12,408 nucleotides of DNA from assembly GCA_017963875.1 (NCBI GenBank), contig JAGCTA010000004.1, positions 1-12,408 on the forward strand. Reading direction: 5' to 3'. Of this stretch, positions 1-11,084 are shown piece after piece. The position numbers were made by a program, and so were the translations under genes. Origin of the DNA: Victivallales bacterium. Lineage in GTDB: Bacteria; Verrucomicrobiota; Lentisphaeria; Oligosphaerales; Oligosphaeraceae. Numbering within the stretch: the first letter of the stretch is position 1; each line of letters opens with the position of its first letter. The notes below the pieces were generated by a model. The model did no database searches, was not told the DNA's origin, and saw nothing but the letters and a program-made list of their open reading frames with translations.

Positions 1-582
1 TGCCATACAGCGGGTCAGATTACCGTCGGCTTCGAGCAGGCTGCCAACGACCTCTCCATCGCCTTCGACCTGCCAATACAATATGCGCGAAACCTGCTGA
101 AGAAATTCGATTCATTGAACCTGAGTGTCATATCGGCCAATGACGGGCGCACGCGCTTCATAGACGTTGAACGCGGACCAGGCACACGCCCGCGCCGCAT
201 CGCGGCATCCAGCATTGAGCAAGTCGTCCAGGTGCGTTTCAGCGAACTGTTCCAAATCATAAAAGAACGGTTGCAACAGGACAATGCATGGCAACTTGCG
301 ACTGGCAGCGTTCGTCTTTCAGGCGGGGCAGCCTTACTCCCAGGCATGACGGCTCTGGCGCATGATATCCTCGCGCACGACGCATTGATCGCTCGGCCTT
401 TCAATGTCACGGCACCAAAGGAAATTATCACAAATCCCGCATTCATTGTTCCCATCGGCGCGTTGAGAAACGCCAAGGAAGCATTGGACAGTTACAATCA
501 GCAGATACAGGCTTCAGGAGGAACACAAGAATCAGCCACTACGAATATCCTGAAAGCCCTAGGTAAAATTCTGAACTTCTAA
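1..582 (+). CDS. ftsA: Cell division protein FtsA, C-terminal part (5' end outside window)
   Basis: The frame is open from the first base to the TAA at 580-582 and gives 193 residues; a TTG at 115 is internal, not a start. FtsA is the actin-like protein that tethers FtsZ to the membrane. The segment matches the last half of FtsA: HTAGQITVGFEQAANDLSIA corresponds to the AGN.VTSDIA block (subdomain 2A), the RPRR region and RFSELFQIIKERL match the VIEPRYTELL helix, and SVRLSGGAALLPGM matches the nucleotide-binding IVLTGGAA..EGL block. The last residues, NILKALGKILNF, form an amphipathic basic helix like the FtsA membrane-targeting sequence. The ftsZ gene starts 20 bp downstream, the usual ftsA-ftsZ order. 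Identification rests on these motifs and on the neighbour; the N-terminal half cannot be judged. Confidence 0.9.
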   Translation, partial: CHTAGQITVGFEQAANDLSIAFDLPIQYARNLLKKFDSLNLSVISANDGRTRFIDVERGPGTRPRRIAASSIEQVVQVRFSELFQIIKERLQQDNAWQLATGSVRLSGGAALLPGMTALAHDILAHDALIARPFNVTAPKEIITNPAFIVPIGALRNAKEALDSYNQQIQASGGTQESATTNILKALGKILNF

Positions 583-602: not shown

Positions 603-1721
603 ATGAAAAAGTCCCCCAAAGTCATGTTCGCAGGTCTCGGCCACGCAGGCATTAAGGCTATGCTGACTGCTGCAGGGCAGTTTGATTCGCAGTATTACTC
701 ATTTGTCGCCATTGACACGCCAAATGAAATCATCAATCTGGACGCCAAATGTTTTGACCACGCATTTCCAACGGAGGCAGGTTGGGAAAATGCGTTTGGC
801 AATTCCCTTCAAGGGCTTCAAATGCTTGCATTGTTTATGGGCCTAGGAGGCAAAACCGCGCCTGATGCCGCTAAACTCGCCATCGCGGCGGCTTCCGCAA
901 AAAACATTCCTGTTGTCGCATTTGCGACATTGCCTTTTTCCTTTGAAGGCGAACAGCGTAAAATCGCTGCATCACATGCGGTGACTGCGCTTAGGCAAGG
1001 AACCAATGCGACTATTATTTTACCCAATGACCTACTTTTCTCGCAGTTTCCAAAGGATTCCAACGCCATGGCGGCATTTGAGCGTGCAGACGAATGGATT
1101 GCGGAAGTTGCCTGTAGCGTACTCAAGCCTTTCACGTTCGCCAATATCATCAATGTCCGTCCTGAAAATCTCGCATGGTTGTTGACACGTAAAAACGCCA
1201 CTGTTTCTGTAGGCATTGGATGGGGCGAAGGCGATGATGCCATTGAAGAAGCCGTCCAGGAACTGTCGGCAAGTCCTTTTCTGAAACAGCAGACTGGCAT
1301 CGCCCAGGCGGATGCGGCACTAGTCATGGTTTCCCTGCCTGACGATGCTTCAATCGGGCAACTTACGGGGTGCCTGACGGCGGTCAAACGACTTTTTGCG
1401 CCTCACCTGAAACTTGAAATCGGCGTCTGCCAAGACGATACGTTGGCTGAAGGAATCCGCATTGTCGCATTGATGCGATTTCCTGGACGTCAGCCACGCC
1501 GCCAGCAGGACGAGGAAGACGCACAATCCGCAGACAATCCCCCGCCACAGCCCTCAGTCGCTGAACATTCGGAGCAGGAACGCCAACTCACGCTCCCAAT
1601 GTCCGACATCATGGAGTACAAGACTGGTATTTTCAATAAAAACGAGCCGACAAAGCATAATTTTGAAAATCTGGATGTTCCGACGTTCATCCGCAGAAAC
1701 ATCCCAATTGACACGCAGTAA
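603..1721 (+). CDS. ftsZ: Divergent FtsZ-like cell division protein lacking the canonical GTPase motifs
   Basis: 372 residues, ATG start 20 bp after ftsA, no clear Shine-Dalgarno. The fold is recognisable as FtsZ: an N-terminal Gly-rich strand-loop (GLGHAGIKA, 11-19), PFSFEGEQR (111-119, like PFxFEGxxR), IILPNDLLF (138-146, like IPNDKLL), VSVGIGWGEGDDAIEEA (like MMGxGxAxGEDRAxEA) and SPFL. Key GTPase elements are altered. The tubulin signature GGGTGTG is GGKTAPD (82-88), the T3-loop GLGAGxxP region is missing from a shortened 40-75 segment, and the T7 NxDxxD is NVRPEN (184-189), losing both aspartates. After a Pro/Glu/Gln-rich linker (about 296-335) the tail keeps LDVPTFIRR (357-365), like the LDIPAFLRK peptide that binds FtsA. 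FtsZ normally polymerises with GTP as the division ring; GTP hydrolysis here is doubtful. The ORF is intact, so this is not an obvious pseudogene. Confidence 0.85.
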   Translation: MKKSPKVMFAGLGHAGIKAMLTAAGQFDSQYYSFVAIDTPNEIINLDAKCFDHAFPTEAGWENAFGNSLQGLQMLALFMGLGGKTAPDAAKLAIAAASAKNIPVVAFATLPFSFEGEQRKIAASHAVTALRQGTNATIILPNDLLFSQFPKDSNAMAAFERADEWIAEVACSVLKPFTFANIINVRPENLAWLLTRKNATVSVGIGWGEGDDAIEEAVQELSASPFLKQQTGIAQADAALVMVSLPDDASIGQLTGCLTAVKRLFAPHLKLEIGVCQDDTLAEGIRIVALMRFPGRQPRRQQDEEDAQSADNPPPQPSVAEHSEQERQLTLPMSDIMEYKTGIFNKNEPTKHNFENLDVPTFIRRNIPIDTQ

Positions 1722-1769: not shown

Positions 1770-1777
1770 AAAGGTGA
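1770..1777 (+). promoter_or_regulatory. Ribosome binding site that decides the aldolase-SDR start
   Basis: AAAGGTGA matches the anti-Shine-Dalgarno complement (AGGTGA) and lies 5 nt before ATG 1783. A GTG three codons upstream (1774) lies inside this motif and would leave that start without its own site, so ATG 1783 is preferred. Confidence 0.55.
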
Positions 1778-1782
1778 AGAAA

Positions 1783-3705
1783 ATGCAGGAAAAACTCAAA
1801 GCCATTGCCGAACTCTCACAATTCTATGGGGCAAATCCCGATTTCGTGTTTCTGGGCGGCGGAAACACATCAGTCAAAAACGATTCCACGCTTTACATCA
1901 AGCCTTCTGGCTGCGCATTGGCAACCATCAAGCCTGAGCAATTCCTGGCTATCGACCGTGCCCAACTCAACAAGTTGTTTGAATTCCCCATTCCTGAAAA
2001 TGTCCAGATACGTGAAGAAATCGCCAAAAACATGCTCGCAGCAGCCGTTCGCCCCATTGGTGCAGGGCGGCCATCCGTCGAAACGCCACTTCATAATATT
2101 ATCAATTATACATACATTGTTCATCTCCATCCTGCACTGGTCAATGGTCTGACATGTGCCTCCAACGGCAAAGCCGCCTGCGCACGCCTCTTCCCTAATG
2201 CATTGTGGATCGATTACTGCGACCCAGGCTCGACGCTTGCATTTGTCGCCAAGAAGGCATTGGATGCCGATACGGCCCAGCGCGGTTCACAGGCAAAAGT
2301 CATCTTCTTGCAGAATCACGGCGTATTCGTCGGAGCGGACACACCAGAAGAAGTCAAGGCAATCTATGACGATATCACCTCAAAACTCATCGCCGCCTAT
2401 CAACAAGCAGACATCCCCACAGGCTCATTTGACCTTGGAACCGTCGATATGGATAATGTCCTTGAAGTCGCTCCTGTTTTGAGGCAACTGTTGGCAGATG
2501 CGGACGGCAACCGCCCGATTGTCCATGCAGCAGGCAGTGTCATGCCGTTTGAAGGACCGCTGACCCCCGACCACGTCGTCTATGCAAAATCATTTGCGTT
2601 CTGCGGAGAAGCCACCGAGGAAGCCATCGCGGATTTCAAGGCAACACATGGCTATCTTCCCAAAGTCGTCGGCATTCCAGGGAAAGGCCTCTTCACTTCA
2701 GCCGACAACCTGAAGGATGCCAAGGCTATTGTCATCGCCGTCGCCAACGCCCTGCAAGTCCAACGCCTTTCTCAGGCATTCGGCGGGCCGAAATTCCTGA
2801 CAGAGCGTGAATACAAGTTCATTGAGAACTGGGAAGTCGAATCCTATCGGCGTAGCGTGAGCATGGCGGCAGGCGGCGCAGGCCGTTTGGCGAACCGCGT
2901 TGCCGTCGTAACGGGCGGAGCACAAGGTTTCGGGCTTGGGATTGCAGAATCGCTGGCAAAGAACGGTGCCATCATTGTCATTGCCGATATGAATGTCGAT
3001 GGAGCAAAAGCCACGGCAGAAAAACTGTGCGAAACGTATGGCAAGGACCGTGCATTCGCCGTCGGAGTAAATGTCTCCGACGAAGAATCGGTTGCCAACA
3101 TGATGACAGAAATCACCTGTATGTGCGGTGGACTTGATTTGTTCGTCGCGAACGCGGGCGTTGTCAGGGCGGGGTCAGTCAAGGATATCACTCTGAAGGA
3201 TTGGGAATTCGTCACAAACATCAATTACAACGGATATTTCCTCTGTGTCAAGCACGCCGCCCGCATCATGGCACGCCAGATTGTCAATGGTAAAGGACGC
3301 TGGACAGACATTGTGCAGGTAAATTCCAAGTCTGGCCTTGAGGGCTCCATCAAAAATGGCGCATATGCTGGCTCCAAGTTCGGCGGCATCGGCCTGACAC
3401 AGTCATTCGCGAAGGAACTGGTCGAGGATTCCATCAAAGTCAACAGCGTCTGCCCTGGAAACTATCTGGATGGACCGTTGTGGAGCCATCCTGAGAAGGG
3501 GCTTTTCGTGCAGTATCTGAACGCAGGGAAAGTCCCAGGGGCCAAAACAGTCGATGATGTCCGCAAATTCTATGAAGCCAAGGTGCCGATGCGTCGTGGC
3601 TGTCTGCCAGAGGATGTCGCCAAGGCCATCATGTACTGCGTCGAACAAGATTATGAAACAGGCCAAGCAATCCCTGTCACGGGTGGTCAGGTAATGCTCC
3701 ATTGA
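1783..3705 (+). CDS. Bifunctional class II aldolase / short-chain dehydrogenase (SrlD-like C-terminus)
   Basis: 640 residues from ATG 1783. Residues about 1-240 form a class II (zinc-dependent, RhaD/FucA type) aldolase/epimerase domain: GGGNTS at 25-30 for the phosphate site, E100 in SVETPLHN as candidate catalytic acid, and zinc ligands H114 and H116 (VHLHP) and H179 (LQNHG). From about 368 there is a classical short-chain dehydrogenase: TGGAQGFGLG (377-386, NAD(P)-binding TGxxxGxG), NAG (457-459), and catalytic S515, Y528 and K532 (NSKSG, then YAGSK). The blocks QVNSKSG, SKFGGIGLTQS, KVPMRRGC and VTGGQVM are what I remember of sorbitol-6-phosphate 2-dehydrogenase SrlD. By family knowledge, such fusions cleave a ketose phosphate and oxidise or reduce a polyol or aldehyde; the substrate here is unknown. 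It probably acts in the cytosol. It follows ftsZ by 61 bp and is closed by a terminator at 3727. Confidence 0.88.
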   Translation: MQEKLKAIAELSQFYGANPDFVFLGGGNTSVKNDSTLYIKPSGCALATIKPEQFLAIDRAQLNKLFEFPIPENVQIREEIAKNMLAAAVRPIGAGRPSVETPLHNIINYTYIVHLHPALVNGLTCASNGKAACARLFPNALWIDYCDPGSTLAFVAKKALDADTAQRGSQAKVIFLQNHGVFVGADTPEEVKAIYDDITSKLIAAYQQADIPTGSFDLGTVDMDNVLEVAPVLRQLLADADGNRPIVHAAGSVMPFEGPLTPDHVVYAKSFAFCGEATEEAIADFKATHGYLPKVVGIPGKGLFTSADNLKDAKAIVIAVANALQVQRLSQAFGGPKFLTEREYKFIENWEVESYRRSVSMAAGGAGRLANRVAVVTGGAQGFGLGIAESLAKNGAIIVIADMNVDGAKATAEKLCETYGKDRAFAVGVNVSDEESVANMMTEITCMCGGLDLFVANAGVVRAGSVKDITLKDWEFVTNINYNGYFLCVKHAARIMARQIVNGKGRWTDIVQVNSKSGLEGSIKNGAYAGSKFGGIGLTQSFAKELVEDSIKVNSVCPGNYLDGPLWSHPEKGLFVQYLNAGKVPGAKTVDDVRKFYEAKVPMRRGCLPEDVAKAIMYCVEQDYETGQAIPVTGGQVMLH

Positions 3706-8672: not shown

Positions 8673-11084
8673 CTAGATTCTTCGTGCAAGATCTCGTGCG
8701 CAATGCCTATGACAGAAAAACATCACAAACATATAGATGCTGTATATCCCAATGGCAAACAGATAGTTCAAGCGAGTCAGGCTCGTCAGGAAAAATGTAT
8801 AGCCGAAAAACATGACTCCCAGACAACCATGGACTATTCCAAGAAATCTTGAAAGTCTTTCTTTTCCGCAGTATTCATGGAGTCTCGCCTGAATAAAACT
8901 CCATAGCAATCCATATATTATGTAGCCATACATCGCCATCCTCGCCATCTGTGGATGCTCTACGCGGAATGACTTGTAGCCGCATTCACCATAATACAAA
9001 TACCACCAGCCCAAAATAAACATGAATGCCTGCGTGACAAACAGCCTGTAAAATGCCACCTTATGACGTAGTTCCTCTACTCCATAATATCTGAAGCCTA
9101 TGCAATCCAGAAAATTTAATGAAAAATAAGACTTGAATTTTGGGTAGGCCTCTGGATGAGCCGTCAAAACTCCGCTGATGGTATCATGGGTAAGGAGTTT
9201 TCTGATGTTTTCGGCTTTGTCATCATTGCCTTTGGCCTTTTCCAGACAGAAATCCATAAACTCGGCAGATGCACTAAGGAGTTGGGCCATTTCCTTGTCG
9301 CTGATTTTTTCAAAACCATACTTTTCCAGTATTTCTGGGTGTTTTTTTGCAACCAGCAGAATCTGCTCTCTTGTCAGAGCCTTCCATGAAAAATGCCTGT
9401 CCCACTCCCAATCCATAAAATCAATCAGCGTATAAAAATCTTCAGCGGACAAATGCGTTATCTCCAGGCAATTAGCAGATTCTAGAATCGTAATCCTGTT
9501 ATTCCATAATTCTTGACTGAAGTTTTTCACAGAACGTCTTTGCTCCAAGGGGAGCAAACGAATATACTCAACAATTTTGCTCCAATGCTTACATGTACAT
9601 CGTGATGCATAGGAAGCGTTTTTGGAAAGGCATGACAGCCATTCTTCACCGCTGATTTTATCCCATTGAAGATATTTCGATACATACTCTGGAAAATTGC
9701 TTATTGCTTCGCATACTCTCTTGGCATTCAACATGTTAAAAATCGCCAGATATTCTGGATGTTTCATATCGGCGTAATTAAATGTTTTTTCCCATGAAAT
9801 GCCGCTTCCATGATTTTGAATCAAATATGCATCTTTGTCTTTCAAATCGTCAGTCAATATCTGTTTCCAGTCACTGGAGACAATGCATTCCCAATGACAG
9901 TGTTTTGAAAATTCAGGGTATTTTTCAACTATTTTTACCCAGTCGCCTGAACTGAATATCCTCCAATCGCAATTCTGAGAGTAATCAATATTTAAACTGA
10001 ATAATTTCATCCAGGCGTCAAAATTGAAAACGCCCCATGGACAGTGTGAGGCATATTCTGGCTTTTCCTGAATAATCACAAGCCACTCTTTTGCATCAAA
10101 GACATTCCACGGACAATGAGCAACCCAATTCGGAGATTTGAGTATAATATTCATCCAGTCCTTTGAGGAAATCCTATCCCATGCGCAATAATTCTCCCAT
10201 TGAGGATTTTCATTCAGAATTTTAACAACATCCTTTCCCAAAACCAAAGAATGGATTTTTAGCAAAGGAGATGTTTTGGGAAGACCTTGGATTCCAATTG
10301 CCCAGTCTTTTAACGTGTAGTTCTTCCAGTCAAAAGAGGTTACATTGGATTTTGTAAACGGATAATGTCCCAAAAGTTCAGGACACATTTGAAAGGATGT
10401 AAAAATCTCATTGCTTTTAAAGGCCTTCCAGTTCAAATGGTTAGACCAGCCCAGTTTCTGTGCAAAAAGAATGGGAAAAGTCAGATTATAATTTTCTTGC
10501 TTTGCCTTGACAGAAAACTTTTTATCTGCATCCAACCCACTGTTTGAAAAAATAAGTTCTTTGTTTTGCAGAAAAGTATCTGGTATTGATACTGTTGCAT
10601 CAACAACATATCGTGAAAATCTTTCCCAAGGGCATTTGGAGGCATAACTTGGCTCTCGAGACAACAGTTCGAGCCAATGTGAAATTGGCAAGACCGAGCA
10701 GTCAAAGGATTGCGCAAAACTTGCATCTGTCGCAAGCAATTTGAGAATTACGTTAATGGGTTTTTTTTTGACAGGAAATAATTGCCAATATTGAGGGTTT
10801 TCCAAAAGCAATTCACACAAAAACGCTTCAGACGGACAGTTTCCTCCAGCATACAGATATGCATAGAGCACTTTCATCATATTAAACAACTGCATCTCCG
10901 TTACCGAGAAGCGGCCATGCGTTGCATTGGCCAACCATGCTGGATACAGAGTACCCTGGAATTCGCATCCACATGACTCGCACAGAAAGAATTGATTTTC
11001 CAAAATCATCCGAATGCTGCACGATACGGCAATTTGCCCACATTCTTCAGGACAAGTAACTATCAATTCCTTATCGATATTCAT
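8673..11084 (-). CDS. Uncharacterised membrane protein with zinc-ribbon-like start and 24-residue Trp/Cys repeats
   Basis: 803 residues; I do not recognise a named family. Residues 11-40 hold CPEEC then CESCGC, a CxxxC...CxxC pattern suggesting a small metal-binding finger. Residues about 90-640 are rich in a Trp/Cys repeat, best in 283-402, where five exact 24-residue units occur; degenerate units lie on both sides (e.g. REPSYASKCPW near 145, NFPEYVSKYLQW, NASYASRC and KKHPEILEKYGF later). Residues about 679-791 contain four hydrophobic segments, probably membrane helices, with a basic tail (HRHCARDLARRI). Repeats with the pattern DW..LL...PQFA..CDW occur, as I remember, in unannotated proteins of gut Lentisphaerota; I could not check this. 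It lies 6 bp after the phosphatase gene and 16 bp before the Sel1 gene. A likely topology is a large cytosolic repeat domain anchored by the C-terminal helices. Confidence 0.75.
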   Translation of the reverse strand: MNIDKELIVTCPEECGQIAVSCSIRMILENQFFLCESCGCEFQGTLYPAWLANATHGRFSVTEMQLFNMMKVLYAYLYAGGNCPSEAFLCELLLENPQYWQLFPVKKKPINVILKLLATDASFAQSFDCSVLPISHWLELLSREPSYASKCPWERFSRYVVDATVSIPDTFLQNKELIFSNSGLDADKKFSVKAKQENYNLTFPILFAQKLGWSNHLNWKAFKSNEIFTSFQMCPELLGHYPFTKSNVTSFDWKNYTLKDWAIGIQGLPKTSPLLKIHSLVLGKDVVKILNENPQWENYCAWDRISSKDWMNIILKSPNWVAHCPWNVFDAKEWLVIIQEKPEYASHCPWGVFNFDAWMKLFSLNIDYSQNCDWRIFSSGDWVKIVEKYPEFSKHCHWECIVSSDWKQILTDDLKDKDAYLIQNHGSGISWEKTFNYADMKHPEYLAIFNMLNAKRVCEAISNFPEYVSKYLQWDKISGEEWLSCLSKNASYASRCTCKHWSKIVEYIRLLPLEQRRSVKNFSQELWNNRITILESANCLEITHLSAEDFYTLIDFMDWEWDRHFSWKALTREQILLVAKKHPEILEKYGFEKISDKEMAQLLSASAEFMDFCLEKAKGNDDKAENIRKLLTHDTISGVLTAHPEAYPKFKSYFSLNFLDCIGFRYYGVEELRHKVAFYRLFVTQAFMFILGWWYLYYGECGYKSFRVEHPQMARMAMYGYIIYGLLWSFIQARLHEYCGKERLSRFLGIVHGCLGVMFFGYTFFLTSLTRLNYLFAIGIYSIYMFVMFFCHRHCARDLARRI
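9879..10238 (-). repeat. Five tandem 72-bp units encoding a 24-residue W/C/W repeat
   Basis: Residues 283-402 divide exactly into five units of 24. The consensus is x-x-D/E-W-x-x-I-I/V/L-x-x-x-P-x-Y/F/W-x-x-H-C-x-W-x-x-F/I-S/D. Cysteines fall at 300, 324, 348, 372 and 396, and the second Trp at 302, 326, 350, 374 and 398. The first Trp is at 310, 334, 358 and 382, with V286 in the first unit. The spacing is exact but the DNA has diverged, so the array is old rather than a recent expansion. Confidence 0.9.
10761..10769 (-). repeat. A9 homopolymer inside the W/C/W-repeat gene
   Basis: Nine T on the plus strand are AAA AAA AAA on the coding strand, giving Lys-Lys-Lys in PVKKKPIN (about residue 106). 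Runs of nine A are known sites of polymerase slippage; the reading frame is intact here. Confidence 0.7.

Follow-up and report, generated by a model that had tools for sequence, protein, structure and literature searches.

A clade-conserved FtsZ homologue next to ftsA with altered T3, T4 and T7 elements

FtsZ treadmilling is driven by hydrolysis of guanosine triphosphate (GTP) at the T7/T4 interface (PMC8936486). In Staphylococcus aureus FtsZ, D210 swings and places the catalytic water together with D213 and G72 of the T3 loop, and D46 of T2 helps to hold the Mg2+ waters and T7; the substitutions D46A, R143Q, N208L, D210N and D213N suppress assembly, and R143K and Q48A lower the GTPase activity about 6-fold and stabilise filaments (PMC8936486). 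The GTP-binding motif is defined as GGGTG[T/S]G and the hydrolysis motif as NxDxx[D/E] (PMC12583498). FtsZ proteins of Verrucomicrobiota are among the most divergent (PMC9871819), and an older review, in its available part, names Verrucomicrobia and Omnitrophica as the sole groups of the Planctomycetes-Verrucomicrobia-Chlamydiae (PVC) superphylum with FtsZ (PMC5945725), a listing that differs from PMC12283558 on Lentisphaerota. Divergent members of the FtsZ/tubulin superfamily have been described as FtsZl1 and FtsZl2, which we compare by description only; they were found partly via a GGGTG(S/T)G motif search, and FtsZl1 lies in operons of the von Willebrand factor A type (PMC2875224). Here we analyse the FtsZ encoded behind ftsA in a 12,408-nucleotide stretch of contig JAGCTA010000004.1 (the window), which, judged by its residues, is an FtsZ homologue that is conserved yet strongly altered and that lies in a division locus.

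A search of 5.8 billion proteins yielded ten close relatives of the window FtsZ (P0001-P0010, 43-73% reported identity), the next hits being at about 30%. Repeating the search with a family profile gave no new members among the 120 listed matches, the ten scoring at least 451 bits and the next one 176; both searches scored only the best word-sharing candidates (7,998 and 7,994, respectively). The window FtsZ shares 45-74% identity with P0001-P0009, and the T3, T4 and T7 changes are common to all nine; together with the window protein they constitute the family of ten used throughout. P0010 was excluded: its N-terminal part is unlike P0009 and the rest matches, so that it is probably a chimera created by assembly or gene calling. 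The family was compared with 166 other rows (P0011-P0176), 11 of a sister group and 155 of the Opitutia/Verrucomicrobiota type, which are neighbours of the query rather than a sample of all FtsZ, and positions are given in Escherichia coli numbering unless a residue of the window protein is named. A scan of viral contigs returned no relative of the window FtsZ, and the sole match in a scan of genome contigs with this single sequence was a Pelagibacteraceae contig (24% identity); among 101 genomes, namely the one holding that contig and its relatives, 81 gave distant FtsZ matches. The literature search found no title or abstract describing this clade, with subscription journals thinly covered, and PMC1845146 contained none of the motif terms looked for in it.

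Comparisons with profiles and with PDB sequences mark the protein as an FtsZ homologue. It just passed the gathering cut-off of Pfam Tubulin PF00091 (33.7 bits against 33), which all ten family members matched at E <=0.01, and scored below the cut-off of Pfam FtsZ_C (22.1 against 27) and far under that of the FtsZ equivalog TIGR00065 (79.8 against 295.2 bits). The latter was also failed by P0009 (75.6), P0007 (105.0) and five sister sequences (140.2-206.3) and passed by P0071 (316.3) and E. coli FtsZ (471.7). The protein matched 51 distinct PDB sequences at E <=1, among them 50 FtsZs, with Pseudomonas aeruginosa FtsZ at the top (E 1.1e-20), and one acetylglutamate kinase (E 0.51). The fold predicted for it is that of FtsZ/tubulin, with a nucleotide-binding and a GTPase-activating domain. 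The protein resembles canonical FtsZ (E. coli, S. aureus; TIGR00065, PF00091 and PF12327) in predicted fold, element order, T5/T6 pocket residues, N207, C-terminal peptide and place after ftsA, but it lacks GGGTG[T/S]G, NxDxx[D/E] and T3 and has Lys for the T1 Asn and Pro for the T2 Asp.

A sequence-only reading of the window had placed GGKTAPD (residues 82-88) where FtsZ has GGGTGTG and NVRPEN (residues 184-189) at the T7 site, and had noted that the T3 GLGAG loop is absent. All three assignments held. Two printed PDB alignments, both with P. aeruginosa FtsZ, set GLGGKT over GMGGGT and NVRPEN over NVDFAD, and an hhalign profile-profile comparison of the ten family members with the 166 other hits, each set being aligned separately, gave the same T4/T7 register (probability 100, E 1.9e-60), with some 20 residues missing at T3. 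A pattern scan detected neither GGGTG nor N.D..[DE] anywhere in the window FtsZ, and since the independent profile alignment concurs, another motif register was rejected; aligning the protein with related FtsZs, as the sequence-only reading had proposed, placed canonical residues in no other register. An N.D..[DE] string does occur near residue 45 in four of the ten family members (P0001, P0002, P0004 and P0005), in the T2 region and not in T7, and only 7 of the 166 related FtsZs hold this pattern. We also rejected a Walker A reading of GLGGKT as G....GK[ST] is missing from all family members. The blocks reported as IPND-like and FEGxxR-like are indeed kept, with the Asn of IPN and the Glu and Arg of FEGxxR retained.

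The replacements are shared across the clade. Position 107, Gly in all 166 other rows, is Lys in nine family members and His in one; D209, the first T7 Asp, is Arg in eight and Lys in two (D in 164/166 others), and D45 is replaced by Pro (6), Ala (2), Gly or Ser (1 each; D in 165/166 others). Positions 70-72 of T3 are a gap in 10/10 members as compared to 1/166 others, the latter being a partial protein (P0154). Asp occupies position 43 in all ten members and in 11/11 sister rows, and position 47 is Glu in nine members. Relative to S. aureus FtsZ this means that the equivalents of D46, D210, D213 and G72 are replaced or deleted, which renders the canonical two-metal GTP interface unlikely in the form known, and that Q48 is Glu in 9/10, with R143 (9/10) and N208 (10/10) kept. 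The sequence-only reading had reported the loss of both T7 Asp residues. This is true of the sequence, with position 212 being Asn (8), Lys (1) or His (1) in the family, but only the first loss sets the clade apart: among the 166 others position 212 is Thr in 86, Ser in 58, Ala in 15, Arg in 2, Asn in 2, Lys in 1 and Asp in just 2 (P0046, P0127), indicating that the second Asp was lost earlier and more widely than in this clade. It is missing in all 16 organism-named rows checked (Opitutia, Verrucomicrobiota, Kiritimatiellaeota). The first Asp is lost in only two neighbouring FtsZs, the sister rows P0127 (SLSDV) and P0173 (NFASF). Going by residue counts, the losses typical of the clade are thus the first T7 Asp, T3, T4 and the T2 Asp; the exchange of the T1 Asn (N24) and of D45 goes beyond what the sequence-only reading had recognised.

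Sorting the nucleotide-contacting positions into two sets of eight separates the two halves of the pocket. In the phosphate/catalytic set (24, 43, 45, 71, 72, 107, 209 and 212, with N or D at 43 taken as canonical) all ten family members are non-canonical at seven of eight positions, whereas ten sister rows differ at two and one at three, and of the 153 remaining rows 146 differ at one, six at two and one at none. In the base/ribose/other set (22, 108, 138, 142, 165, 182, 186 and 207) nine family members show no difference and one shows a single one, compared to one to three differences in the sister rows and none in 148/153 others. P0027 and P0154 were left out of both counts, and since both sets were chosen after the residue counts had been seen the contrast is a description, not a test. 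Retained in the family are T108, E138, N165, D at position 186 and N207 (10/10 each), R142 (9, H in one) and F182 (9, Y in one). On this evidence the pocket has retained its guanosine half, and its phosphate/catalytic half has been replaced. The replacement states are themselves near-invariant (in window numbering K18, D38, E62, K84 in 9/10, R/K186, E188 in 9/10, W192, W207 and others). Likewise, N, LD, PT and R of the C-terminal peptide (LD.PT..R) are invariant across the ten, and by its residues the window FtsZ has the conserved tail peptide for FtsA/ZipA-type partners.

We placed the family in a maximum-likelihood tree of 40 rows, comprising the window FtsZ, 35 hits, E. coli FtsZ and three Pelagibacter-type FtsZs. 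The family groups as a single clade (100/100), its stem measuring 1.71 changes per column, and is sister (100/99) to 11 FtsZs, one of which (P0021) is named Kiritimatiellaeota. After removal of the T1, T2, T3, T4 and T7 columns the family (100/100), the 11 (97/90) and their union (99/99) were all still single clades, with the caveat that long branches can still mislead. Family and sister group have in common Asp at 43 (21/21), Arg or Lys at 24 (21/21) and Trp at 64 (21/21 in two of three alignments); this Trp before T3 falls into one column in two alignments and not in the third, making the likeness alignment-dependent. They also share a C-terminal tail of the GIF/GMF..LD(V/I)P type. The Kiritimatiellota-type sister rows differ from the clade in keeping T3 (GCGG), G107 (11/11) and D209 (9/11) and in having lost N207 in 11/11, which the clade keeps in 10/10; R142 is changed in three of them. 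The losses are hence not one simple series, and a stepwise decay from Opitutia via the sister group to the clade was rejected in its simple form. The 155 Opitutia/Verrucomicrobiota-type FtsZs resemble the clade in that the second T7 Asp is missing in all but one row, but they keep T3 and have N24 in 148, D45 in 154 and G107 and D209 in all 155.

The gene context agrees with a division role. The sequence-only reading was right that the FtsZ gene adjoins ftsA, and in the window it occupies the division-cluster position (Table 1). The FtsA piece matched E. coli FtsA in BLASTP (E 8e-14, 25% identity), and in a MAFFT alignment of the two it retains the residues aligned with R286, R300 and E303, which we take to be contacts to the FtsZ tail; its C-terminus was judged by eye to be possibly amphipathic. 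Gene position, FtsA-binding peptide and tree favour, without proving, a division FtsZ.

Table 1. Features of the ftsA-ftsZ region of the window
Feature	Position	Strand	Remark
ftsA C-terminal piece	1..582	+	Window begins inside gene; TIGR01174 63.1 bits, cut-off 175.85, partial protein
Divergent FtsZ, 372 aa	603..1721	+	Starts 20 bases after ftsA piece
T1 loop GLGHAGIK	633..656	+	Lys18 for T1 Asn (E. coli N24); K in 10/10 family, N in 148/166 others, R 8 and K 3 in 11 sisters
T2 loop DTPNE	714..728	+	Asp38 at E. coli N43, Pro40 for canonical D45, Glu42 for Q47
T3 deletion site	783..794	+	Beside conserved Trp61-Glu62; exact point (residues 61-64) alignment-dependent
T4 loop GLGGKTAPD for GMGGGTGTG	840..866	+	GGKTAPD at nucleotides 846-866; Lys84 at G107
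T5 loop TLPFSFEGEQR, kept	927..959	+	E. coli E138: E 10/10; R142: R 9/10, H 1
N142 to D163, base/ribose contacts kept	1026..1091	+	E. coli N165, F182, position 186
T7 loop NVRPEN	1152..1169	+	Arg186 for catalytic D209, Asn189 at D212
C-terminal conserved peptide NLDVPTFIRR	1668..1697	+	Predicted FtsA/ZipA-type binding tail; E. coli has LDIPAFLR
Aldolase/dehydrogenase gene	1774..3705	+	Adjoins ftsZ

From the altered residues, their conservation in the clade, the predicted fold, the tail and the locus in the window we infer how such a protein might work, and we lean towards the view that it is the lineage's ftsA-linked, FtsA-tethered division FtsZ with a rebuilt interface that holds a nucleotide permanently or none at all. 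It would be the vertically inherited division FtsZ of an uncultured Lentisphaerota/Kiritimatiellota-type bacterium, in which the nucleotide-phosphate and catalytic half was remodelled and the fold, the guanosine half and the FtsA tether were retained. Monomers would stack head to tail in FtsZ fashion, with their tails held by membrane FtsA, and each T7 loop would reach into the pocket of its neighbour with Arg or Lys instead of the water-positioning Asp, facing Lys residues on T4 and T1. A guanine nucleotide might then be clamped permanently and unhydrolysed, with one subunit contributing Arg/Lys186 and the following one Lys84 and Lys18 to its surroundings; alternatively, the interface might contain no nucleotide, with salt bridges running from the T7 Arg to Asp38/Glu42 of T2. 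Instead of treadmilling under the drive of GTP, the resulting ring would serve as a scaffold that is static or is remodelled from outside. A parallel in function is offered by the N-site of alpha-tubulin, which lies between the alpha and beta subunits of a dimer: GTP bound at this longitudinal interface stays unhydrolysed (PMC13095656). That site differs in belonging to a heterodimer, and the likeness to the clade FtsZ is by analogy only. At the N-site the facing T7/H8 of beta-tubulin carries a basic residue (Lys), and T3 and T4 are intact. The sequence-only reading had proposed a filament in which GTP is probably not hydrolysed by the usual route; this gains support from the clade-conserved losses in T3, T4 and T7, and the division filament of these bacteria may function without GTP being cut in the normal manner.

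Several points weigh against a rebuilt, hydrolysis-free interface. The basic T1 residue and Asp38 also occur in the sister group, where T3 and T4 are retained, and therefore cannot be linked to lost catalysis; N207 is lost in those sister rows and kept in the clade. By analogy with the S. aureus single mutants that fail to assemble, the clade FtsZ might not polymerise through a canonical interface. Moreover, a second FtsZ may lie elsewhere in the genome, and if that copy were canonical and made the treadmilling ring, the window FtsZ would be a specialised partner or regulator serving to cap, stabilise or tether that ring. Regulatory paralogues typically lose catalysis, and ARC3-type FtsZ-like proteins in plastids set a precedent: ARC3 has a domain derived from FtsZ and presumed inactive as a GTPase, bears extra plant domains and coexists with canonical FtsZ1 and FtsZ2. 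A divergent FtsZ copy, usually branching with Verrucomicrobiota, is also present in some genomes of the candidate phyla radiation (PMC9871819). We nevertheless consider a partner role unlikely, as the ftsA-ftsZ position in the window is taken by this gene, the FtsA-binding peptide is retained, the protein is sister to Kiritimatiellota-type FtsZ, where the lineage's own FtsZ could stand, and division and cell wall (dcw) genes are highly conserved in Lentisphaerota and Kiritimatiellota (PMC12283558).

It is less probable still that GTP continues to be hydrolysed, slowly or by a route in which E188 of T7 or D38/E42 of T2 supplies the acidic residue, leaving division canonical in kind. The equivalents of the T4 Thr, the T5 Glu and Arg (9/10), N165, F182 (9/10) and N207 are kept, residue 188 is Glu in 9/10, and FtsZ may tolerate the loss of the second Asp, with D at 212 in just one of the 155 non-sister relatives; ftsZ is essential in Verrucomicrobium spinosum (PMC12283558, whose available part did not include its T7). 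Against this, exchange of Asp for Arg/Lys at the catalytic position together with the T3 deletion and the T4 Gly-to-Lys change removes known water-positioning and gamma-phosphate contacts (PMC8936486). A decaying gene or an assembly or frame error without a working protein would fit the low TIGR00065 score and is nonetheless hardly credible: the open reading frame is intact, its codon usage correlates with that of the pooled other window genes at 0.62 in frame compared to 0.37 and 0.50 out of frame, within the neighbours' range (0.52-0.80, each itself in the pool), and nine other proteins carry the same changes with near-invariant replacements. The retained base/ribose side, predicted fold and C-terminal peptide likewise speak against decay.

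Downstream of ftsZ, 15 of the 120 listed aldolase/dehydrogenase matches have an organism name, 14 being Lentisphaeria/Lentisphaerae/Victivallales and one Kiritimatiellaeota; they serve as a mere pointer to Lentisphaerota, as metabolic genes can move. The second-best match, P0178 (91% identity), and the FtsZ relative P0003 each lie on a 7,376-base contig, and the equal size suggests that the ftsZ-aldolase neighbourhood is the same in their source. If the contig is indeed one, 91% identity for the aldolase/dehydrogenase stands beside 71% for the FtsZ, which seems, from these two comparisons, to evolve faster than its neighbour. On the minus strand, three genes between 6791 and 12392 encode a Sel1-repeat protein, an 803-residue protein (8673-11084) and a metallophosphatase. 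The 803-residue protein has no above-cut-off Pfam match and contains C.W..[FI] motifs every 24 residues (at 300, 324, 348, 372 and 396). The third-position guanine-plus-cytosine content is 0.38-0.45 in these three genes as compared to 0.51-0.58 in the five plus-strand genes.

A clade that keeps the division locus, the fold and the membrane tether of FtsZ with its hydrolytic machinery replaced would provide a direct test of the need for GTP turnover in bacterial cytokinesis. PMC8936486 describes the second T7 Asp as conserved across species, and its broader loss among these FtsZs provides an exception that can be put to the test. In its furthest form, which we put forward tentatively and hold somewhat less probable than not, the window protein would be the only FtsZ of its lineage and form an FtsA-tethered tubulin-family filament without GTP hydrolysis or GTP-driven treadmilling, its nucleotide clamped or replaced by charged interface residues, and would represent a surviving intermediate on the way to the FtsZ-free division of Planctomycetota and Chlamydiota. 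If true, it would provide a naturally occurring intermediate with which to approach the complete loss of FtsZ in related members of this superphylum.
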